From contig NZ_JH992958.1 of NCBI RefSeq assembly GCF_000315445.1, positions 120,611 to 184,610 of the forward strand: a DNA stretch of 64,000 nucleotides, in the 5' to 3' direction. Position 1 is the stretch's first letter, and every line of letters starts with the position of its first letter. A program made the translations under genes and the position numbers. Of the stretch, positions 45,963-61,199 are shown piece after piece. The stretch is from Alloiococcus otitis ATCC 51267 (GTDB taxonomy: Bacteria; Bacillota; Bacilli; Lactobacillales; Carnobacteriaceae_A). The notes under the pieces are model-generated. The model saw nothing but the letters and a program-made list of their open reading frames with translations. It had not been told where the DNA came from and made no database searches.

Positions 45963-47132
45963 ATGACTCAACTCAATCTTACACTAGACGCCAATAAATT
46001 AACAGACGCAATTTTAAATTGTGATCTGGATCAAGTGATGAAATCCACCTTAGTGACGGTCTTAAACGCTTATATGGAGTCCGAGCGCGACCAATATATG
46101 AAAAGCAAGCGGTACGAGCGAGATGAAAATCGCTGTGATTACCGCAATGGGTATTACGAGCGAGATTTCACCACGAAAATCGGCACCCTCAAGCTCAACG
46201 TGCCCAGAACGCGATCAGGCGACTTCCATACCCAATTATTTGAACTCAATCCAAGCGGATGGATCAAGGCCTACTGGCTACCATCTTTGAGATGTACGTC
46301 AATGGCATCTCCACCCGCAAAATGACGAAAGTCGTGGAATCCCTTTGTGGTCAAAAGGTCTCCAAATCGTTTGTCTCCGATGTCAATAAACACCTGGACA
46401 AGGATGTCTTTAACTTTCAAAAGCGGTCCCTCACCCATACTAATTTCCGGTATATCTATGTCGATGCCATGTATATAAAGGTCCGAGAGGATAACCGGGT
46501 GGTGTCCAAAGCTCTTTACATCGCCCAAGGAGTCAATGATGAGAATAGGCGAGAAATCATCGGGTTTAAAGTGGCTGGGCAAGAGTCAACGGAAAGTTGG
46601 CGGTCGTTCTTTCTTGATTTAAAAGCCAGAGGCATTGATACGCCGAAAATGGTGATTTCAGATGCCCATGCAGGCTTACGGAAAGCTATTCAAGAATGTT
46701 TTGTCAACACCACTTGGCAACGCTGTACCTTTCACTTATTAAGCAATATCACCGATGCCTTGCCGAAAACCACGGACCGAGTCATCCGAGATCGTTTCCA
46801 AGCGGTTTTATTTTCCAGAACCCAGCAGGAAGCTCGTGAACGGAAACAGGCTTTGGAGGCGGAGTTCGAAAACCAAGCGAAGCTGGCCAAAGCTTTGAGC
46901 CTATTAGATGAGGGCTTTGAAGATGCCATTCAGTATCAAATTGAGCCTTCTCCTTACCACATGTCTTTAAGAACAACCAAATTCTATCGAACGAGTCAAT
47001 CGTGAAATTCGACGTCGAGAAAGAGTGGTGGGGATTTTCCCCAATATCAAATCCGCGGAACGGCTAGCCGGCTCGGTCTTATTAAACCTGCAGGAGAATT
47101 GGGAAGCTCAGAACTATCGATTTTTACGATAG
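45963..47132 (+). pseudogene. IS256-family transposase with two frameshifts
   Basis: The N-terminal third (MTQLNLTLDANKLTDAILN to FHTQLFE) is in one frame. An extra base near 46245 shifts the frame, and the DDE core continues as LLATIFEMYVNGIST, YVDAMYIK and VISDAHAG. A second extra base in the A-run at 46979-46981 shifts it again before the conserved ERVNREIRRRERVVGIFP tail, which ends at 47132. The family signature is otherwise intact. Both shifts are single insertions; a sequencing error is possible for the A-run. Confidence 0.92.
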
Positions 47133-47634: not shown

Positions 47635-49125
47635 TTACTTGCTGTCTGCTGGTGATTCGTGGTCTTCAAAATTGTATTTCAAGATTGGTTTACGTGAGGT
47701 TTGAGCTTCATCGATACGGCGAACTGGGGTGTTGTGTGGAGCTGTTTTAACCAGTTCTGGGTCTTCTTTGATCTCTTCCGCAATTTTGATGAAGACGTCA
47801 GCTGTATAGTCAAGGTCACGTTTAGACTCTGTATCAGTTGGCTCAACCATGAGGCATTCTTGGATGATAAGTGGGAAGTAGGTGGTTGGTGCGTGGACAC
47901 CGTAGTCAAGAAGACGTTTCCCTACATCTTTGGCCACAATATCGTATTCTTTCTTGAAGTTGGTCAAGTCAAGGACAAAGTCGTTTTTGTTAAATTGGTC
48001 AAATGGAGCATTGTAGTGGTCTTTGACCCGGGCACGAAGGTAGTTGGCGTTTAAGACCGCATCTTCAGAAGCACGACGCAAGCCTTCAGGTCCCATTGCT
48101 CGAATGTAGTTGTAAGCACGGACGTTAACACCAAAGTTACCAAAGTCACCTTTGATTCGACCGTAAGATTTTTCTGGTGTTTCAAAGACGTATTTGTCGC
48201 CGTCTTTGACCACGTTTGGTCCAGGAATGTATGGTGCTAGTTTGTCGACCACACCGATTGGGCCTGAACCTGGTCCACCACCACCGTGAGGGCCGGTAAA
48301 GGTTTTGTGCAAGTTCATGTGGCAAGCGTCAAAGCCCATTGCTGCTGGAGAAGAAATTCCCATGATGGCGTTCAAGTTCGCACCATCGTAGAAGACAAGT
48401 CCACCAGCTTCGTGGATGATGTCCGCAATTTCTTTGGCATCTTGCTCAAAGAGGCCGGCAGTGGATGGGTTGGTTACCATGATACCTGCAACATCAGGTC
48501 CAGCTGCTTCTCTAACAGCTTCCACATCGATCAAACCGTCTTCTCTTGAAGGAAGTTCAACAATGTCATAGCCGGCAACCACTGCAGTAGCTGGGTTAGT
48601 CCCGTGGGCAGTGTCTGGGATAAGGATGGTTTTACGTTGGTCGCCTTCACCGATTGCTTCAAAGTAAGCTTTGAAGGTTAGGATAGAAGCCAACTCACCG
48701 TGGGCACCTGCTGCTGGTTGCAAGGTAACCGCATCAAATTGAGTAATTTCTTTCAAGTATTCTTGGAGGTTGTACATCAACTCCATTGCCCCTTGAATGG
48801 ATTCAGGGTCTTGGTTGGGGTGGATGTTTGAAAAGCCATCTAAAGCAGCCACTTCTTCGTTGACTTTCGGGTTGTATTTCATGGTGCAGGAGCCGAGTGG
48901 GTAAGGTCCTGATTCAACCCCGAAGTTACGGTTGGACAAGGCAGTGTAGTGGCGGAGTAATTGCAACTCTGACACTTCTGGCAGTCTTGCTGGTTCTTTA
49001 CGGGAGTAGTCGCCTAGTTCTGAGTCTAAATCGTAGTCTTCGATTTCACTGGCAGGAAGGTCATAAGCAGTATGGCCTTCAGTAGAAATTTCAAAAATTA
49101 ATTTATCATAGTCCTGAATTAACAT
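47635..49125 (-). CDS. gcvPB: Glycine dehydrogenase subunit 2 (P-protein beta)
   Basis: 496 residues; the PLP lysine is Lys274 in MNLHKTFTGPHGGGGPG, and the glycine-rich loop follows it. With GcvPA it decarboxylates glycine and moves the aminomethyl group to lipoyl-GcvH. It starts inside the stop of gcvPA (TAATG), so the two subunits are co-translated. It is the last gene of the operon. Confidence 0.95.
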   Translation of the reverse strand: MLIQDYDKLIFEISTEGHTAYDLPASEIEDYDLDSELGDYSRKEPARLPEVSELQLLRHYTALSNRNFGVESGPYPLGSCTMKYNPKVNEEVAALDGFSNIHPNQDPESIQGAMELMYNLQEYLKEITQFDAVTLQPAAGAHGELASILTFKAYFEAIGEGDQRKTILIPDTAHGTNPATAVVAGYDIVELPSREDGLIDVEAVREAAGPDVAGIMVTNPSTAGLFEQDAKEIADIIHEAGGLVFYDGANLNAIMGISSPAAMGFDACHMNLHKTFTGPHGGGGPGSGPIGVVDKLAPYIPGPNVVKDGDKYVFETPEKSYGRIKGDFGNFGVNVRAYNYIRAMGPEGLRRASEDAVLNANYLRARVKDHYNAPFDQFNKNDFVLDLTNFKKEYDIVAKDVGKRLLDYGVHAPTTYFPLIIQECLMVEPTDTESKRDLDYTADVFIKIAEEIKEDPELVKTAPHNTPVRRIDEAQTSRKPILKYNFEDHESPADSK

Positions 49126-50474
49126 TATTTAGCCACCTCCGCTAAAGCTTGAACAAAGTCGTCGATCTCTTCTTTTGTTCGTTTTTCAGTTGCCACAAGC
49201 AAGTAGGCACCCTCTTGTTCCAGTGCATCTGAAGCATCGTAGCCACCCACATAGCCTTTATCATAAAGGGCTTTGTTGACTTCTTCAACGTCTTTGTCTA
49301 ACTTGATGGTAAATTCGTTGAAGAATGGACGGCTGTTAAGAAGTTCAAAACCTTTGTCTTGTAGCTGTTTAGCCAAGTAGTGACCATTGTTAATATTGCG
49401 TTGAGCAAGTTCTTGGACCCCTTGTTTACCGTAAGCAGCTAAGGCAACTGCTGAAGCTAGGGCAAAGAGGGCTTGGTTGGAAGAATAGTTGGATGTCGCT
49501 TTTTCACGACGGATGTGTTGCTCACGAGTGGACAAGGCCATGGAGAAACCACGTTTGCCTTCCTCATCAACGGATTCCCCAACAAGTCGGGATGGCACCT
49601 TACGCATTAATTTTTTGGTAACGGCGAAGTAACCACTGTGAGGGCCACCTAATTGCATTGGGATACCAAATGGTTGGATGTTACCGACAACGATGTCAGC
49701 ACCCAAGTGGCCTGGCGCTTCCAACTTAGCAAGAGCAAGTGGGTTACTTGAAACAACAAGTAGGGTTTTGTAGTCTTCAAGTAGTTCTTTGATCGCTTTT
49801 AAGTCTTCAACAGAACCGAAGAAGTTAGGGTATTGGACCACAACAGCAGCTACATTTTTATCAAGTTTAGCTTTCAAGTCGTCGAGGTCGGTGATGTCCC
49901 CATTTAATTCAACTTCTTCAACGTCATAGTTTTTACCGAAGCCGTAAGTTTTAGCGGTTTGGATCCCTTGGGGGTTAACGGCTTTAGAAATCAAGACCTT
50001 GTCAGACTTACGGACTTGACCGATAGCTAGGTTGTTGGCTTCACCGATTGCAGTGTAGCCATCGTATAGTCCAGAGTTGGCTAAGTCCATACCAGTTAAC
50101 TCAGCTACCATGGTTTGCCATTCGAACAAGGCTTGGAGTTCACCTTGGGAAACTTCTGGTTGGTAAGGGACATAGGCAGTCAAGAACTCTTGACGCATAA
50201 TGACGTGTTTCACAACTGTAGGCACGTGGTGGTCATAAACCCCTGCACCTAAGAAGAATGGAACTTGGTTAGAAGTTGTGTTTTTGGAAGCTAGTCGGTT
50301 AGCTTCTTTTAGCAATTCATATTCTGACAAAGGCTTAGGCAAGTTCATTGGCTCTTTACGTTGGACTTCTTCAGGAACGTCCCGGTAGAGGTCCATAATA
50401 TCTTTGGCGCCAATGACATCTAACATTTCCTCGCGGTCTTTATCTGTATTTGGTAAATATCTAAAATGCACCAT
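49125..50474 (-). CDS. gcvPA: Glycine dehydrogenase subunit 1 (P-protein alpha)
   Basis: 449 residues beginning MVHFRYLPNTDKDREEML, the usual start of this subunit. AAGGAG lies six bases before the ATG at 50474; the open frame extends 33 codons further without a site. It is the non-PLP half of the split P-protein. A 304-bp gap with strong secondary structure separates it from gcvH. Confidence 0.95.
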   Translation of the reverse strand: MVHFRYLPNTDKDREEMLDVIGAKDIMDLYRDVPEEVQRKEPMNLPKPLSEYELLKEANRLASKNTTSNQVPFFLGAGVYDHHVPTVVKHVIMRQEFLTAYVPYQPEVSQGELQALFEWQTMVAELTGMDLANSGLYDGYTAIGEANNLAIGQVRKSDKVLISKAVNPQGIQTAKTYGFGKNYDVEEVELNGDITDLDDLKAKLDKNVAAVVVQYPNFFGSVEDLKAIKELLEDYKTLLVVSSNPLALAKLEAPGHLGADIVVGNIQPFGIPMQLGGPHSGYFAVTKKLMRKVPSRLVGESVDEEGKRGFSMALSTREQHIRREKATSNYSSNQALFALASAVALAAYGKQGVQELAQRNINNGHYLAKQLQDKGFELLNSRPFFNEFTIKLDKDVEEVNKALYDKGYVGGYDASDALEQEGAYLLVATEKRTKEEIDDFVQALAEVAK

Positions 50475-50778: not shown

Positions 50779-51141
50779 TTATTCGTCTGTGTCGTCTTCA
50801 GTTGATAAGTCAGATGTGTCAATTTCGTCTTCTGCTTCGACTTCGAAGAACCAACCTTTGCCTTCAGGATCTTCGTTGACAATTTCAGGTTCGTCTTCTA
50901 AGTCTTCGTTGATTTTAGTTACTTTGATAGCAAATGGAAGGACTACTTCTGAGAAGGATTTAACAGATTCAACTGTCCCGATCTCTTCGTCAGCATCGAA
51001 TTCATCGTCAACTTCTGGAAGTTCAACGTGAACGATGTCACCTAATTCTTCTGCTGCGTATTCACTAATACCAACACGCGCTTTCTTACCTTCTAGGATT
51101 TCAATCCAATCGTGATCTTCTGTATAATATACTTCAGCCAT
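50779..51141 (-). CDS. gcvH: Glycine cleavage system H protein
   Basis: 120 residues. The lipoylated lysine is Lys61 (GTVESVKSFSEVV). It carries the aminomethyl group from GcvP to GcvT. The C-terminus is very acidic and rich in Ser/Thr (DEIDTSDLSTEDDTDE), slightly unusual for the family. GGGG precedes the ATG. A dihydrolipoamide dehydrogenase (L-protein) gene is not in the operon and would have to be shared with another complex. Confidence 0.95.
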   Translation of the reverse strand: MAEVYYTEDHDWIEILEGKKARVGISEYAAEELGDIVHVELPEVDDEFDADEEIGTVESVKSFSEVVLPFAIKVTKINEDLEDEPEIVNEDPEGKGWFFEVEAEDEIDTSDLSTEDDTDE

Positions 51142-51231: not shown

Positions 51232-52368
51232 TTATTTGTTGTCAAGCCAATCTTTTTTGTTCAATGTTGCTTCAACGTCTTTACCACGAACGTCGATAAT
51301 AACGGTGTCGCCAGGTTTGTAGGAACGGTCGAGTCGGATGAAACCAATTGGGTTACCGAATGTTGGTGATTTGGTTGCAGAAGTTACCACACCAATTTTT
51401 TCGCCGTCTTTGTTTTTAACGTCCATGCCTTGTCGCGGAATTTTTGTGCCGTCAACAGTGAAGCCACGGGAAGTTTCTTTAACTTGGTCACCTTCACGGT
51501 AAGCAACAATAGCATCGCGACCAACATAGTCGACTTCTTTTTTCTTAGGCACTGCAAAGGCAACCCCACCAGCAACTGGGTTAACCGACTCGTCAAAGTC
51601 GTTACCGTAAAGTGGAAGTCCTGCTTCAAGACGGAGGGTGTCACGAGCACCAAGGGCACATTCAGTTACGCCCAAGTCTTGGCCTTCTTCCAGCAATTTG
51701 TTCCAAACGGTTAGGACATCATCGTAAGGAATGTAAAGCTCGAAACCTGATTCACCAGTATAGCCGGTACGTGAAATTTGAACATTATCAACACCAGCTA
51801 GGGTTTGGTCAGGCGAGTATGAGTAGTATTCAATGGAAGCCAGGTCAGCATCAGTTAAGCGGCTAACCAATTCTTCAGCATTTGGTCCTTGAACTGGAAT
51901 TAAGCCCCAGTCAAAGGTTTCGTTAACAACTTCAACAGCACCGTCTTTGTTGTGGTCAACCAACCATTCGTAAATTTTGTCAGTGTTGGCACCGTTTGGA
52001 GTGGCAACTAATTCGTCTTTGTTCACCCGGTAGTAAATCATGTCGTCAAGCATACCGCCGTCATCTCTAATGATAGCAGTGTATTGTGCTTTACCGTCTT
52101 CTTTGATTTTACGGGTGTCATTGGTGATGATAGTGTTGAACCAGTCAAAGGCATTTTCTTTGCCTGATTTAACGACAATTTCACCCATGTGGGAAGTGTC
52201 GAAAATACCAACTTTTTCACGAACTGCATCGTGTTCTTCTTGGATTTTAGTGAATTGGATTGGAAGGCCCCAGCCACCAAAGTCGGTGATTTTTAGACCT
52301 TTATCAAGGTAGTAATCGTATAGAGGCGTTTTTTTCAATCCGTTTTCGTCAAATTGTGCTTCAGACAT
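51232..52368 (-). CDS. gcvT: Aminomethyltransferase GcvT
   Basis: 378 residues. Folate-binding features include LYDYYLDKGLKITDFGGWGLP at the start, the SRTGYTGESGFELYI segment and a C-terminal GFIRLDRSYKPGDTV. It moves the methylene group from GcvH to tetrahydrofolate and frees ammonia. AAAGGAGAG precedes the ATG. It follows fchA by 38 bp. Confidence 0.95.
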   Translation of the reverse strand: MSEAQFDENGLKKTPLYDYYLDKGLKITDFGGWGLPIQFTKIQEEHDAVREKVGIFDTSHMGEIVVKSGKENAFDWFNTIITNDTRKIKEDGKAQYTAIIRDDGGMLDDMIYYRVNKDELVATPNGANTDKIYEWLVDHNKDGAVEVVNETFDWGLIPVQGPNAEELVSRLTDADLASIEYYSYSPDQTLAGVDNVQISRTGYTGESGFELYIPYDDVLTVWNKLLEEGQDLGVTECALGARDTLRLEAGLPLYGNDFDESVNPVAGGVAFAVPKKKEVDYVGRDAIVAYREGDQVKETSRGFTVDGTKIPRQGMDVKNKDGEKIGVVTSATKSPTFGNPIGFIRLDRSYKPGDTVIIDVRGKDVEATLNKKDWLDNK

Positions 52369-53033: not shown

Positions 53034-53044
53034 AAGGGCACCAC

Positions 53045-53899
53045 CTAATCTACATCATGCAAGAGCTTGGTTCCTTTGATCACCTGGGAAGCTAAAACGG
53101 CTGTAGTGACTGAGCCAACACCGCCAGGGACTGGGGTAATGGCTGAAGCTTTGGGTTCTACTTCGTCAAAGCGAACGTCCCCTGTTGCCTTGCCGTCCTT
53201 GTAGCCAAAGCCGACATCAATCACAGTTGCCCCGTCTTTCACCAGGTCAGGACCAATCAGACCCAAAGCACCCGTTGCTGAAACCAAAATGTCAGCTAAT
53301 TTGGTGTGGATGGAATTGTCTTTGGTGTAGACATGGGTGTTAGAGATTGTCGCATTGCGGTTGGTTAACATGACTTGTAAGGGCTTACCAACAACTGGGC
53401 TAGAACCGACCACCGCAACTTCAGCACCTTCTAGGTCATAGTCATAATAGTCTAAGATCTCAATCACTGCTTGGGCAGTGGAAGGAGCCATAGCTGAAGG
53501 GTCGTTGTTTAATAATTTCCCTAGGTTGACAGGGTTTAAGGCATCCACGTCCTTGAAGGGGTGGAGTTTTTCGGCCACTTGAGCTCGGTCAATCCCTTCA
53601 GGGAAGGGTTGCATGCAGATAATGCCAGTAATGGAGTCATCTTGGTTTAACTTGTCAATGACTTCTAGCATATCTTCTGTGCTTTCAACCCCAAGTTCAG
53701 TATGGGCTTCAGCTTTAATGCCACATTTTTCCATCTGCTTGATAGCAGACTTCTCGTAAGCCTTGGAGGACTCGTTTTCGTCCACACGCAAAACGGCCAA
53801 TTTCGGCTCAATCCCCTTTTCATTGAGGGCTTGGGCATCTTCCTTTGCCTTGGCACGGATGGCCTTGGCAACTTCCTTACCATCTAAAATTTTAGCCAT
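53045..53899 (-). CDS. folD: Methylene-tetrahydrofolate dehydrogenase FolD, cyclohydrolase lysine missing
   Basis: 284 residues from the ATG at 53899, behind AGGAGG; the longer open frame has no site. The NADP fold motif VVGSSPVVGKP and the C-terminal TPVPGGVGSVT are intact. In the active-site helix the sequence is Tyr48-Glu-Lys-Ser-Ala52, where bifunctional FolD proteins have Tyr-x-x-x-Lys. That lysine is essential for the cyclohydrolase reaction. The usual DVDGFHP also reads DVDALNP. The enzyme is probably a dehydrogenase only, with FchA as partner. Confidence 0.93.
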   Translation of the reverse strand: MAKILDGKEVAKAIRAKAKEDAQALNEKGIEPKLAVLRVDENESSKAYEKSAIKQMEKCGIKAEAHTELGVESTEDMLEVIDKLNQDDSITGIICMQPFPEGIDRAQVAEKLHPFKDVDALNPVNLGKLLNNDPSAMAPSTAQAVIEILDYYDYDLEGAEVAVVGSSPVVGKPLQVMLTNRNATISNTHVYTKDNSIHTKLADILVSATGALGLIGPDLVKDGATVIDVGFGYKDGKATGDVRFDEVEPKASAITPVPGGVGSVTTAVLASQVIKGTKLLHDVD

Positions 53900-54082: not shown

Positions 54083-55750
54083 TTAGAATAGGCCTGTAAT
54101 GTTACCTTTGTCGTCAATGTCGATACGGTTAGCAGCTGGTTCTTTAGGAAGACCTGGCATTTTCATAATGTTACCGGACTTAGCAACAATGAAGCCAGCA
54201 CCAGCAGAAACAGTTAAGTCTTGGATGGTGATAGTGAAGCCAGTTGGTGCACCCAATGCTTTCTTGTCATCAGAGAAGGAGAATTGGGTCTTAGCCATAC
54301 AAATTGGTAGTTTGTCGTGGCCGTGACGTTTGAATTTACGGATTTTAGCTTTCGCTTTACGGGTGAATTCAACTTTTTCACCGCCGTAAATGTCTTTAAC
54401 CAAGGTTTCAATTTTATCTTCGATAGAGTCATTGACATCGTAAGCAAATTTGAAGTCATTGCCTGCTTCAGAAGCTTCAATAACTGCATTTGCCAAGTCT
54501 TTAGCTCCGTCGCCACCTTCAGCAAAGTTAGTAGCTAGGACAACTTTGATGTCTTCTTTTTCACACTCTTCTTTAAGTGCTTGAATTTCATCGTCAGTAT
54601 CAGTTGGGAATTGGTTGATGGCAACGATTGGGTTAATGCCAAAGACATTTTTAAGGTTGTTAACGTGGCGAACCAAGTTTGGCATACCGTCACGTAGAGC
54701 TTGGACGTTTTCAGTTTCCAATTCTTTTTTGTCTACGCCACCGTGCATTTTAAGGGCACGAATAGTTGCAACAACTACTGCTGTATCAGGTTTGATGTCA
54801 GCTTGACGAGCTTTGATGTCGATGAATTTTTCAGCACCAAGGTCAGCACCGAATCCACCTTCAGTAACAGTGTAGTCAGCGTGAGCCATTGCTACTTTAG
54901 TTGCTAGGACAGAAGAGCATCCGTGAGCAATGTTGGCGAATGGTCCACCGTGGACAAAGGCAGGGTTGCCTTCCAAGGTTTGAACCAAGTTAGGTTTGAT
55001 GGCTTCTTTTAGTAGGGCTGCTGCAGCACCTTGGCCTTGTAGGTCAGCAACAGTTACAGGGTCATTGTCGTGGTTGTAAGCAACGACCATTTTACCGATT
55101 TTTTCTTTTAATTCAGAGAGGCTATCTGATAGGCATAGGGCCGCCATAATTTCAGATGCAACAACGATGTCATAGCCGTCTTCTCGAGGCACACCGTCTG
55201 CACGTCGGCCTAAACCATTTGCAATGTTACGGAGTTGACGGTCGTTCATGTCAACAACACGACGCCATTCAATCCGGTTTACATCAATGTCCAGTTCATT
55301 ACCATGGTGGATGTGGTTGTCAATTAAAGCAGCAATCAAGTTAGTTGCAATGCCAATTGCGTGCAAGTCACCGGTAAAGTGAAGGTTGATGTCTTCCATT
55401 GGGATAACTTGTGAGTATCCACCACCAGCAGCTCCACCTTTAACACCAAAGACTGGCCCTAAGGATGGTTCACGCATAGCAACGGCTGCTTTTTTACCGA
55501 TTTTGTTCAAACCATCAACTAGACCGATGGAGGTAGTCGTTTTACCTTCCCCAGCTGGTGTCGGTGTAATGGCTGTTACGAGGACCAACTTACCGAAGTT
55601 AGTTGCGTCTAAGTCAAGTTTTGTAAAGTCTACTTTAGCTTTGTCGTTGCCGTATGGTTCTAAGAGGTCATGTTTGATCCCTAGTTTGTCAGCAACTTCT
55701 TCAATAGGTAGACCTGTTGCTTCCTGAGCGATTTCAATATCCGATTTCAT
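54083..55750 (-). CDS. fhs: Formate-tetrahydrofolate ligase Fhs
   Basis: 555 residues, the family length. The nucleotide-binding loop [16 protein letters not shown] is near residue 60 and the [20 protein letters not shown] segment near 95. It reversibly makes 10-formyl-tetrahydrofolate from formate and ATP. The ATG at 55750 has AGGAGGAG upstream. It is the first gene of fhs-folD-fchA-gcvT-gcvH-gcvPA-gcvPB. Confidence 0.95.
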
Positions 55751-56664: not shown

Positions 56665-57786
56665 TTAAGCTCTTTTTAGCTTGTACATCTTGAGGTTTTC
56701 ATAACCCACCACAACTTTATAGTAGCCGGACAAGCGTTCATCCAAGTCAGCATCCCCGGTGTAAATCAAGAAAGGCCGGTTATTTAAGGTTCGGATTTTG
56801 CCGGGAGTGGAAACAATTGTAATATCGTCTTTATCCAGCTGGCTGAGAACTTTTGAAGAAATTTGTGGGTTGCCGCGACCAAAGAGGTAGCCTTGACCAC
56901 CCATTGGGGTCACGATCAATTTAGCCGGCTTGTCTTTGATGATTTCTAGGATGTCAGACTCTGAAGCATCTTTTTTCACCATTTTTTTGTTTTTAATAAT
57001 GTCGACTCCAAGCTTGGTAACTTCCAGGTCCAACTCTTCCATGATTGGAACAAGGGTTGTCCCTGACCCAATAATATAGTAGACATCCTCTTCCATCCGG
57101 TCGATCACGTCCAAGCAAGCCGAAACTTTAGCTTCATGGTCACTTTGAGGCGAAGGTGACTTCAAGTTCTGCATGTGGCTTTCATCGTGGGGAACATTGA
57201 GGTAACCATAAACTTCGGTCACCACTTCATCCTGTCTGAAAGCTTCTTCTTCAATATCAATAACTTCTTTTTCGTTAACCGACTGGATTTCATCATTGAG
57301 GTAGCCGGCAAGAAGTTCTCCCGCATTTTCTGGTGAAGTAGCAAAGACTGGGGAGTGGATTTTAACTCCAGCTGGAATCCCTAATGCTGGAATTTCCAAT
57401 TGAATAGTTTTGGCCACATCACGGGCAGTCCCGTCCCCACCGACAAACAAGAGAATATCGATGTCGTCCTGGTTCAAAACTTCTTTAAGGAAACTTTCTG
57501 TATCATCAGGCCCTGTTTCTTCCTTACCAGAGTATAGGACATCGGGGTTTTGGTCATATTTGTTGAGGAGGTCTTCCCCCATCTGACCACCGGCTGTAAA
57601 CCATTCAACCTGGTCGACCTTGTCCAAGGTGATCTTGAGTGCTTTCTCAGCCTTTTGGTTAGCTTCTGGTTCAGCACCCCGGCGCCGAGCTTCTTCTAAA
57701 ACATCTTTGCCGTCAGTACCTTTCAAACCAACCCGGCCGCCCATACCGGCAATCGGGTTAATCAGTAGCGCAACTTTTTTTACCAT
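56665..57786 (-). CDS. ATP-NAD kinase-family protein (AcoX-like)
   Basis: 373 residues with the diacylglycerol/NAD kinase fold: VALLINPIAGMGGRVGLKGTDG at the start and the nucleotide motif LLFVGGDGTARDV near residue 110. It is longer than housekeeping NAD kinase and resembles the AcoX-type ATP-NAD kinase-like group, whose substrate is not established. I chose the ATG at 57786 with AAGGTG upstream. It has no functional neighbours. Confidence 0.8.
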   Translation of the reverse strand: MVKKVALLINPIAGMGGRVGLKGTDGKDVLEEARRRGAEPEANQKAEKALKITLDKVDQVEWFTAGGQMGEDLLNKYDQNPDVLYSGKEETGPDDTESFLKEVLNQDDIDILLFVGGDGTARDVAKTIQLEIPALGIPAGVKIHSPVFATSPENAGELLAGYLNDEIQSVNEKEVIDIEEEAFRQDEVVTEVYGYLNVPHDESHMQNLKSPSPQSDHEAKVSACLDVIDRMEEDVYYIIGSGTTLVPIMEELDLEVTKLGVDIIKNKKMVKKDASESDILEIIKDKPAKLIVTPMGGQGYLFGRGNPQISSKVLSQLDKDDITIVSTPGKIRTLNNRPFLIYTGDADLDERLSGYYKVVVGYENLKMYKLKRA

Positions 57787-58031
57787 TTTATTCACCTTCC
57801 TATACATTCTTCGACACCTACAACCTACCACACTTGCTAAGATTTCACTAGCGAAAACGTTTTAAAGATGAAATTTAAGGGCAGGTTGGGCCCTCTTTAA
57901 AAATGGCTAGCGGTTGCTGGTTTTACTTCAAAGCCTTCAAACCGGTCCAAGTCGACTTTGGTATGCTGAATCTAGTCTATTGAGTGCAATGATGGCTTTT
58001 GGGACTTAACTTGACTAGGCAAACGTCAAAA

Positions 58032-58321: not shown

Positions 58322-61045
58322 TTAGTCTTTTTTAGTGAGAACAAGGCCACCTGATAGGGAAAGCAGTCCGAGTGCCCCCAGTAACCAGCCAGCTGTGGCA
58401 GTGTCTGGTAGGGTTTGGCCAGCTTTTTGACTCGTTTCGGCTACTTGACTCAAGTCTTCTGCAGTCACTTGACCTGCTTGGTAGCGGTCAGCAAGTTCTG
58501 CTAATTCTTCTAGGCTAGCGTTTGCGAGTAGGCTAGCAACAAAGTCAGGGCCAAAAGCTTTTTCAATTTCAGCTAGGACTTGGTCAAGTGCTTTAGCAGC
58601 TCTTTCGTAGTCAGCTGGAACAACCACTTGGTCATCTTCTTGAGGGTCAGCTGGAACTGGAGTCAAGTCATCATCTGAAGTTTGGCTGTCATCACCTGGT
58701 TTTTGACCATCTTCTTCAGGATCCTCAACTTCTTGGTCATCACCTGGTGTTTGACCGTCTTCATCTGGACTTTCAACTTCACCATCTGGGTCAGTTTCTG
58801 ACTCATCTGGAATCTGGCCTTCCAAGTCATCTCTGTCAGTGATTTCAGCCACAAGTCTAGCGAGGCTATCAGCATCCAAGGCTTCGTCGCTAACAGTAAT
58901 TCGGCCTTCTGTTTCAGGTGCAATCGGGCCGTCTTGTTGGCGGATGTAGTTGATGAGGACATCAGAGAACAATTCCCCAGTGACCAATTCAACGTCATAG
59001 TCAGCAAACATGGTGTAGCCGTCCCCACCTGCTAGGAGGAAGTCGTTGGTTGCCAAATTGTAGGTCCGGTCTGGGTCTAGCACTTCACCGTTGACTTCAA
59101 CGTAAACAACACGTTGGCCTGGCTCACGAGTAGCATCCACAATGTACTTCAAGCCAGATGCATGCAAGAAGCCACCGTTTTGTTCAGGGTATTGGCGGCT
59201 ACCGTGCTCCAAGGCTTCAAGAATGACAGAACCTGGAACGTTGACTGTTTCCACTAGGTTGATAAATGGTAAGACAGAAACAACATCGCCTAAGGTAATC
59301 TCGCCGGCATCAATGCTGGCCCGGATTCCCCCACCGTTGATGAAGGCAATTTCGGCACCAGTGAATTCTCGAACAGCATCGGTGATCAAGTTACCCAGGT
59401 TGGTTTCCCCTCGTCGGACAAAGTCACGTTCCCCGTTAAGGACCACACTAGTCGATCCGATAACTTCGCCCAGTTCTCTTTCCACTTCAGCTTGGATTTC
59501 CTCAAGCATTTCCTTGATAACTGGGTCTTCTTCACTGCCTTCAACAGCTAGGATATCTTCTGGGTTCCCTACCGTACTGGATGGTAGGTCTTCTAAGATT
59601 TGGTCTAAGTTCTCAGCTAGGGTAAGGTGTTGGGCTGTTTTTTGAACAATATTTCCATTTTCGTCAAAGTCAAGGTGGACTAGACCGATCAATTTACCGT
59701 GTTCCCAAGCTTGGGTGATCAAGGTCTTGTCATTACCGTCCACGTAAGCTCCACCAATTACTGGTGTGTGGGAGTGACCCCCGATAATCAGTTCTACTTC
59801 AGGGTTTTGTCGGGCGATTTCTTGGTCAACCCCGTAACCCACGTGGGAAAGGACGATAAACTTGCTGAATTCTTCAGACAAGGCTTCAATTTGGTCGGAA
59901 ATAGCTTGGACTTCATCGGTAAAGACAATGCCTTCTACATTATTCGGGTGGGTAGAAGTATAGGTTCCTTGGGTAGCTAGGCCGATAATACCGATTTTTT
60001 CACCGAAAACTTCCCATTCGGTAAAGGACTTGAAGAGGTCATTGCCCTCAGTGTCTTTAACATTGGAAGCCACAAATTCAAAGTCAGCCTCTTCTTCCAA
60101 CTCTTTCAAGCGGTCAAAACCGTAGTTGTATTCGTGGTTCCCGGTTGTCATGGCGTGGTAACCCATTTCGTTCATCAGACGGATAATGTTTTCGCCTTCA
60201 GTCAGGTTGACCAAGGTAGTTCCGTGAACGGTGTCACCCGCATCCAACAAAAGAAATTCGTCAGCTAGTTGACGGTAAGCATCAAAAATAGTCTTGATGT
60301 GACCCAAGCCCATGTCGTAGTCAGACTCCCCTTGACGGGTGATCCGGCCGTGAAGGTCGTTGGTAAAGCCAATGGTTGCACGACGGGTGCCGGCTGGTCG
60401 CTCAGGAACAGGCGGTAATTTCAAGTTTGGCGCATGGTCCAAGGAAACTTCAGGGCTGGCTTCTGCTTGAACAGGGCTTTCTTGGTCTTGACCTTGGTCG
60501 GCATCTGAGTCTGCAGTTTGGTCTTGGCTAGGAGTTTCTTCTGTCTCTCCTTCAGAGCTTTCGCCTTCAGCAACTGGATTACTTGCAGCTTCTTGGCCTT
60601 GATCATCCGCTTGACCCTGGCTAGCTTGGTCTTGGTCTGAAACTTCTTGACCTCGGTCGGCAGCTTGGCCTGGCTCTTGGTCCGAAACTCCTTGGTCTGG
60701 TTCAGGATTGGCAAGGGCTTGACCTGATTCAGCTGGACTAGCAGTAACTTGGTCGTCTGTGACTTCTCCTTCATCACTTGCTGGGGCATTTAACACACCT
60801 TGTGCCTGGTCATCCGCTTGAGCTTGACTTAAATTCGCTAGAACTTCATCGTCTGAACCTTCAGGAGTTTGGTCTGAGGCTAAGCCTTGACCCAAATTGC
60901 TTCCGTCACTTGCTTGACCTTCTTGGGCTTGAACATCTTGGGCTGAAATACCAGCTAGGACAAGTCCAGATAAGGTAACAGCTACAAAGTGTTTCTTGAC
61001 TTTTCTCAAAACTTTACGGTGGACACCTTCATTTTGTTGTTTCAC
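58322..61045 (-). CDS. Cell-wall-anchored 5'-nucleotidase / metallophosphatase
   Basis: About 907 residues. A basic start and hydrophobic helix (HFVAVTLSGLVLAGISAQ) form a signal peptide. A Gln/Asp-rich linker of about 170 residues follows. The metallophosphatase domain has NDLHGRI, LLDAGDTVHG, GNHEYNYG and GGHSHTP. The nucleotidase C-terminal domain has INGGGIRAS and LLAGGDGYTMF. An acidic linker leads to LPDTA, a membrane helix and KKD. Surface enzymes of this type release adenosine from nucleotides and can dampen host immunity. I chose the GTG at 61045 (AGGGTG upstream); other starts are possible. Confidence 0.9.
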   Translation of the reverse strand: MKQQNEGVHRKVLRKVKKHFVAVTLSGLVLAGISAQDVQAQEGQASDGSNLGQGLASDQTPEGSDDEVLANLSQAQADDQAQGVLNAPASDEGEVTDDQVTASPAESGQALANPEPDQGVSDQEPGQAADRGQEVSDQDQASQGQADDQGQEAASNPVAEGESSEGETEETPSQDQTADSDADQGQDQESPVQAEASPEVSLDHAPNLKLPPVPERPAGTRRATIGFTNDLHGRITRQGESDYDMGLGHIKTIFDAYRQLADEFLLLDAGDTVHGTTLVNLTEGENIIRLMNEMGYHAMTTGNHEYNYGFDRLKELEEEADFEFVASNVKDTEGNDLFKSFTEWEVFGEKIGIIGLATQGTYTSTHPNNVEGIVFTDEVQAISDQIEALSEEFSKFIVLSHVGYGVDQEIARQNPEVELIIGGHSHTPVIGGAYVDGNDKTLITQAWEHGKLIGLVHLDFDENGNIVQKTAQHLTLAENLDQILEDLPSSTVGNPEDILAVEGSEEDPVIKEMLEEIQAEVERELGEVIGSTSVVLNGERDFVRRGETNLGNLITDAVREFTGAEIAFINGGGIRASIDAGEITLGDVVSVLPFINLVETVNVPGSVILEALEHGSRQYPEQNGGFLHASGLKYIVDATREPGQRVVYVEVNGEVLDPDRTYNLATNDFLLAGGDGYTMFADYDVELVTGELFSDVLINYIRQQDGPIAPETEGRITVSDEALDADSLARLVAEITDRDDLEGQIPDESETDPDGEVESPDEDGQTPGDDQEVEDPEEDGQKPGDDSQTSDDDLTPVPADPQEDDQVVVPADYERAAKALDQVLAEIEKAFGPDFVASLLANASLEELAELADRYQAGQVTAEDLSQVAETSQKAGQTLPDTATAGWLLGALGLLSLSGGLVLTKKD

Positions 61046-61199
61046 GATGTGGAGCACCCTGCTTTCTTTTTTCGTATGTAATAGTCTACATATCAAATAT
61101 ACCATTTTTTCCCAGCCTGGTCTGATAAGAATGTGTATGGTTTAGGCTAATTTTGTGTAAAGGAAAAAAGTCTTTGTAAAGGGGCCACACAAAAGAGTC

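Follow-up and report, generated by a model that had tools for sequence, protein, structure and literature searches.

The folD gene of Alloiococcus otitis ATCC 51267 lies on the reverse strand of the window, by which we mean the whole stretch of 64,000 nucleotides that was analysed, within a block that reads NAD-kinase-like gene, fhs, folD, fchA, gcvT, gcvH, gcvPA and gcvPB (Table 1). The stand-alone fchA described in the earlier note is indeed located immediately downstream of folD, and the 11-bp gap between the two genes suggests that they may be co-transcribed. Just beyond the gcvPB end of the block is a truncated Mutator-family (IS256-like) transposase gene (46259-47005, + strand). At the other end, the NAD-kinase-like gene adjoins a gene (58322-61105, - strand) for a large 5′-nucleotidase-type protein that carries an LPDTA-like wall-anchor motif at its C terminus.

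Table 1. Features of the folD-fchA region, in window coordinates.
Feature	Coordinates	Strand	Evidence or size
gcvPB, glycine dehydrogenase subunit 2; one edge of the block that Facklamia shares	47635..49125	-	NF003346 691 bits; synteny
gcvPA, glycine dehydrogenase subunit 1	49125..50474	-	NF001696 591 bits
gcvH, glycine cleavage H protein	50779..51141	-	TIGR00527 124.6 bits
gcvT, glycine cleavage aminomethyltransferase	51232..52368	-	TIGR00528 305.9 bits
fchA, stand-alone methenyl-THF cyclohydrolase (predicted), PF04961	52407..53033	-	208 aa; PF04961 171.3 bits
folD-fchA gap, 11 bp	53034..53044	-	ORF coordinates
folD, methylene-THF dehydrogenase, predicted to lack cyclohydrolase activity	53045..53899	-	284 aa; PF00763 E 1.6e-29
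Met96-Gln97 codons, at E. coli Gln98-Leu99	53609..53614	-	alignments
Ala52 codon, aligned with catalytic Lys54 of E. coli and Lys56 of human	53744..53746	-	alignments
fhs, formate-THF ligase	54083..55750	-	NF010030 893 bits, cut-off 652
NAD-kinase-like protein; other end of the shared block	56665..57807	-	PF01513 + PF20143

The window FolD has both the PF00763 catalytic domain and the FolD fold. Its best PDB sequence match is 3p2o (E 1.2e-63), and its AlphaFold model (mean pLDDT 95.0) matches FolD/MTHFD2 structures with Z scores of ∼40; against E. coli FolD (1b0a), 283 of 284 residues were matched with a Z score of 37.5. The window protein thus shares the fold of the bifunctional E. coli enzyme and retains two folate-site residues, Tyr48 and Asp119 (E. 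coli Tyr50 and Asp121), but the two proteins are 38% identical and differ at both residues of the cyclohydrolase step, with Lys54 replaced by Ala and Gln98 by Met. Loss of the lysine, the central claim of the earlier note, was borne out: the Tyr-x-x-x-Lys motif reads Y48-E-K-S-A52, with E. coli SQIY50-VAS-K54 opposite SKAY48-EKS-A52 and the Ala52 codon given by agc on the + strand (GCT as read). Because this segment is gapless, residues 43-58 of the model form an unbroken helix covering Y48-A52, and the fold match is nearly complete, the lysine is not hidden by misalignment. An alternative alignment that would restore it was ruled out, since the gapless segment lies within that single helix. 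Nor is A52 a sequencing error, because the lysine is also absent from the FolDs of Facklamia, Atopobacter and all sampled genomes of the same family. The change at the second residue, Gln98 to M96, was overlooked in the earlier note; together with Leu99 to Q97, it turns VQLPLP into CMQPFP. The best score of the window FolD for bifunctional FolD in NCBIfam was 250.6 bits against a cut-off of 437, and none of the 25 models listed reached its own cut-off. A second, normal folD, which the earlier note had named as evidence against its reading, was not found in the 97%-complete genome, where a PF00763 search returned a single gene.

Mutants of human MTHFD1 at Gln100 lose cyclohydrolase activity and keep the dehydrogenase. 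The view that the lysine is needed for the cyclohydrolase step holds for E. coli FolD, in which K54N had undetectable cyclohydrolase and ∼19% dehydrogenase activity and Q98H had ∼1% cyclohydrolase activity (PMC5688156). It does not hold for Bombyx MTHFD, for which the cyclohydrolase kcat/Km was 0.097 for K53A and 0.22 for Q97A, compared with 0.13 for the wild type (PMC6443876). Although spontaneous hydrolysis may have been a factor in the Bombyx assay, the activity kept by these two mutants means that residue loss alone is not proof of lost function.

One explanation compatible with the Bombyx data is that the FolD cyclohydrolase persists through another residue near the folate site (R38, Q97 or Arg, or T266), with FchA acting as an accelerator or in another reaction. 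Lys-less FolDs do carry new polar or charged residues: among 69 Lys-less rows of the alignment, L40 (E. coli numbering) is replaced by Arg in 63 (R38 in the window), L99 by Arg or Gln in 60 (Q97), and V268 by Thr in 60 (T266). K53A of Bombyx, moreover, retains most of its activity (PMC6443876). We nevertheless regard this explanation as unlikely, because E. coli K54N lacks the activity (PMC5688156) and because the near-perfect co-occurrence of Lys-less FolD with PF04961, described below, is hard to explain if FolD sufficed. Lys-less FolDs also differ from normal ones at V51 (Glu), M266 (Val/Ile) and F123 (Leu/Met/Ile). The last of these lies in the motif that reads DVDALNP in the window (residues 117-123) in place of DVDGFHP, a change previously taken as a sign of a reshaped active site. 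Only part of that reading stands: Phe to Leu/Met/Ile tracks loss of the lysine, whereas Ala often stands in place of Gly in normal, Lys-containing clostridial FolDs (DVDAFHP).

FchA is a single-domain protein and the product of the only PF04961 gene in the genome. Its best PDB sequence match is the methenyltetrahydrofolate cyclohydrolase 7vg4 (E 1.1e-24). It scored 132.7 bits with the NCBIfam FchA model NF045657, under the cut-off of 275; the folD-linked FchA proteins of Facklamia, of Alkalibacterium and of a single clostridial genome fell short of it as well. A tree of PF04961 proteins, from which 24 loci without a plain PGGG motif were left out, grouped the window FchA with proteins linked to folD in Facklamia, in relatives of Alkalibacterium and in Clostridia. 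The ftcD-linked proteins formed one clade, which also contained a few from Lys-less genomes (G095, G101, Atopobacter). At 7 of 8 neighbourhoods read in Lactobacillales with a Lys-containing FolD, the PF04961 gene adjoins one whose product starts like glutamate formiminotransferase, FtcD (an identity confirmed for L333 by Pfam and NCBIfam); neighbourhoods of this type also include fhs and, in most cases, a gene for a HutD-like protein, an arrangement like that of histidine degradation. In one genome (G062), PF04961 lies beside fhs without ftcD. These arrangements are consistent with the PF04961 protein beside ftcD in Lys-containing Lactobacillales being a histidine-type cyclodeaminase.

The window protein could be of that kind too, namely a formimino-THF cyclodeaminase partnering a separate FtcD and adjoining folD only through their shared methenyl-THF. 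An orphan ftcD does lie ∼58 kb away, near dnaA (G000:C2:231484-232389; L350:7485-8390), in a genome with no other PF04961 protein, and PF04961 is found beside ftcD in many Lys-containing Lactobacillales. However, a search of the genome found no urocanase, the window FchA groups apart from the ftcD-linked clade, and its closest PDB sequence is a cyclohydrolase, so that we consider this alternative very improbable. FchA could still double as a cyclodeaminase, because the orphan ftcD is present despite the lack of urocanase; an orphan FtcD may also serve 5-formyl-THF salvage. As to its main role, the earlier proposal that FchA compensates for FolD is very probably correct: the lysine is lost, there is no second folD, and the sole PF04961 protein is encoded 11 bp downstream.

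The association was then examined across genomes by FolD and FchA domain searches of 27 genomes of the same family, 148 of the order and 138 from the class to which Ohessyouella blattaphilus (L105) belongs, with positions 54 and 98 (E. coli numbering) read from fetched FolD loci. FolDs from genomes with and without fchA were thereby aligned, as the earlier note had proposed. In Lactobacillales and Clostridia, PF04961 was present in 77 of the 78 genomes with a Lys-less FolD (readable residue, G017 added), whereas a Lys-less FolD occurred in 1 of the 93 PF04961-negative genomes read; the loci were selected rather than random, PF04961-positive genomes being covered and PF04961-negative ones only in part, and three genomes with a second FolD match, or one below the listing, had their FolDs read in part. 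Both Lys and Gln were found at 53 of 53 loci from PF04961-negative genomes of the order and in 40 of 41 such genomes of the class. The sole Lys-less genome found without PF04961 was a 1.2-Mb assembly (G207). The lysine was absent from each of the 27 family genomes, as it was from the Facklamia and Atopobacter sequences. Among FolD-bearing clostridial genomes, 47 of 128 had a Lys-less FolD (one residue unreadable) together with PF04961, and in ∼27 of these 47, as counted from coordinates, folD and the PF04961 gene were no more than ∼1.1 kb apart. These counts do not represent independent events, because loss of the lysine can be traced to a single change, or two, in the FolD phylogeny; an independent-pairs test had one pair only and gave no significance. 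PF04961 does not force loss of the lysine, since it occurs together with a normal FolD in two clostridial genomes (G229, G241) and in the Lactobacillales genus that includes G062 and G090. As a predictor of lysine loss, PF04961 alone was therefore rejected, because the histidine-type protein beside ftcD accompanies a normal FolD.

A tree built from 162 FolDs placed every Lys-less protein in a single group, the window FolD falling in the same clade as the clostridial ones. Support was 99 for its core and 94 once three K54Q proteins that keep Gln98 were included. With the motif columns removed, the core of Ala/Ile/Leu/Val/Cys-type FolDs was still one clade with support of 99, and we therefore rejected the possibility that the clade is an artefact of the motif itself. 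In that second tree, the three K54Q proteins joined the Q98E group immediately outside the core, perhaps through long-branch attraction. The clostridial FolDs of L287, L299 and L307, which branch basally in the Lys-less clade, have Lys54 changed to Gln with Gln98 kept, and all occur with PF04961. Lactic acid bacteria of genus g13 (G030, G086, G093, G106, G112; L154, L167, L171, L178, L180) have Lys54 kept, Gln98 changed to Glu, and PF04961 present, and may represent a second route to a dehydrogenase-only FolD. Acetoanaerobium noterae is a named Lys-less member. Outside the phylum, Collinsella aerofaciens has a FolD (L352:3001-3855) that lacks both cyclohydrolase residues yet is publicly annotated as bifunctional; its gene lies 2 bp from a gene of the cyclodeaminase/cyclohydrolase family and beside an IS256 transposase.

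This single clade of Lys-less FolDs shows that the split is ancient, and that A. otitis inherited it rather than originated it. A recent change private to this genome, in which a decaying bifunctional FolD was rescued by FchA, is hardly credible given this single clade and the absence of the lysine throughout the family, in Facklamia and in Atopobacter. From the replaced residues, the genes present, the conserved gene order, the clade and the co-occurrence with PF04961, we infer that the cyclohydrolase activity of the window FolD has been lost. It is highly likely that this protein is a dedicated methylene-THF dehydrogenase, with FchA opening methenyl-THF, and that the two belong to an old FolD/FchA pair that occurs across Clostridia and Lactobacillales.

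The order of all eight genes is identical in four Facklamia genomes, with proteins 60-80% identical, and the NAD-kinase-like protein at one end is 60% identical in the same gene order (L088-L091). Past both edges of the block, window ORFs had no match among Facklamia ORFs in the stretches compared. FolD is 78 to 80% identical between Facklamia and the window, compared with 56 to 57% for DnaA, whereas for a member of the same family (G019) the relation is reversed, with DnaA 82% and FolD 53% identical. Because these identities are opposed between Facklamia and family relatives, horizontal transfer of the block, in either direction, fits best. Its GC content is similar to that of the rest of the window (44.6% and 45.2%), which argues that the transfer was not very recent or that the donor was similar; the truncated transposase beyond gcvPB may be a mark of how the block moved. 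In Alkalibacterium the loci read fhs-fchA-folD, with FchA ∼30% identical and no gcv genes within the stretch compared. A plasmid search with FolD gave no match of at least 60% identity. The suggestion that one bifunctional enzyme became two, as an event in A. otitis, is not supported, since the Lys-less FolDs are one old clade and the block is shared with Facklamia against the ancestry of the genome.

Yeast Mtd1 (1edz), an NAD-dependent monofunctional dehydrogenase, has the same fold as the window FolD (Z score of 31.7, 22% identity) and also lacks cyclohydrolase activity, a loss that was probably independent of the Lys-less clade. In Clostridium perfringens, FolD is said, in the work of Aluri et al. 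2016, to be a dehydrogenase without cyclohydrolase activity, FolD and FchA both being required to replace E. coli FolD. C. perfringens and the window organism both have FolD, a separate FchA and Fhs; in the window, the pair sits inside a glycine cleavage block and its host is a lactic acid bacterium. The C. perfringens FolD with FchA is the topic of that work (doi 10.1099/mic.0.000209), which PMC7219735 cites. In Tepidanaerobacter acetatoxydans, fchA lies beside folD and fhs (PMC3584212). Separate monofunctional dehydrogenase and cyclohydrolase proteins, as predicted for the window, have been reported for Clostridium formicoaceticum and Acetobacterium woodii (PMC9124964), although these are Wood-Ljungdahl acetogens, unlike the window organism. 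A limited literature search found no publication tying the presence of FchA to loss of Lys54 and Gln98. We conclude that the FolD/FchA arrangement is real. It belongs to a division of labour that is ancient, common and previously described, found here in a cluster shared with Facklamia.

In the pathway that we propose, FolD would oxidise methylene-THF to methenyl-THF, FchA would open methenyl-THF to 10-formyl-THF, and Fhs would connect 10-formyl-THF with formate and ATP; glycine cleavage would either supply methylene-THF or consume it. With FolD, FchA, the glycine cleavage T, H, PA and PB proteins and Fhs encoded in one block, neighbouring gene products could interconvert glycine, methylene-THF, methenyl-THF, 10-formyl-THF and formate; the activity of FchA and the direction of flux are predictions. 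A more speculative possibility, which we put forward only tentatively, is that the eight genes move horizontally as a unit, by which lactic acid bacteria oxidise glycine to formate and make ATP by running formate-THF ligase backwards; the dehydrogenase-only FolD and FchA would be the committed middle steps.

A large clade of FolDs without both cyclohydrolase residues is probably annotated as bifunctional, the Collinsella record being a direct example. Carried into metabolic models, the bifunctional label would make FchA seem optional, though it is probably required. Positions 54, 98, 99, 40 and 268 (E. coli numbering) provide a simple sequence test for a dehydrogenase-only FolD. Because carolacton binding depends on Lys54 (PMC5688156), Lys-less FolDs, including that of A. 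otitis, should by inference not bind it.
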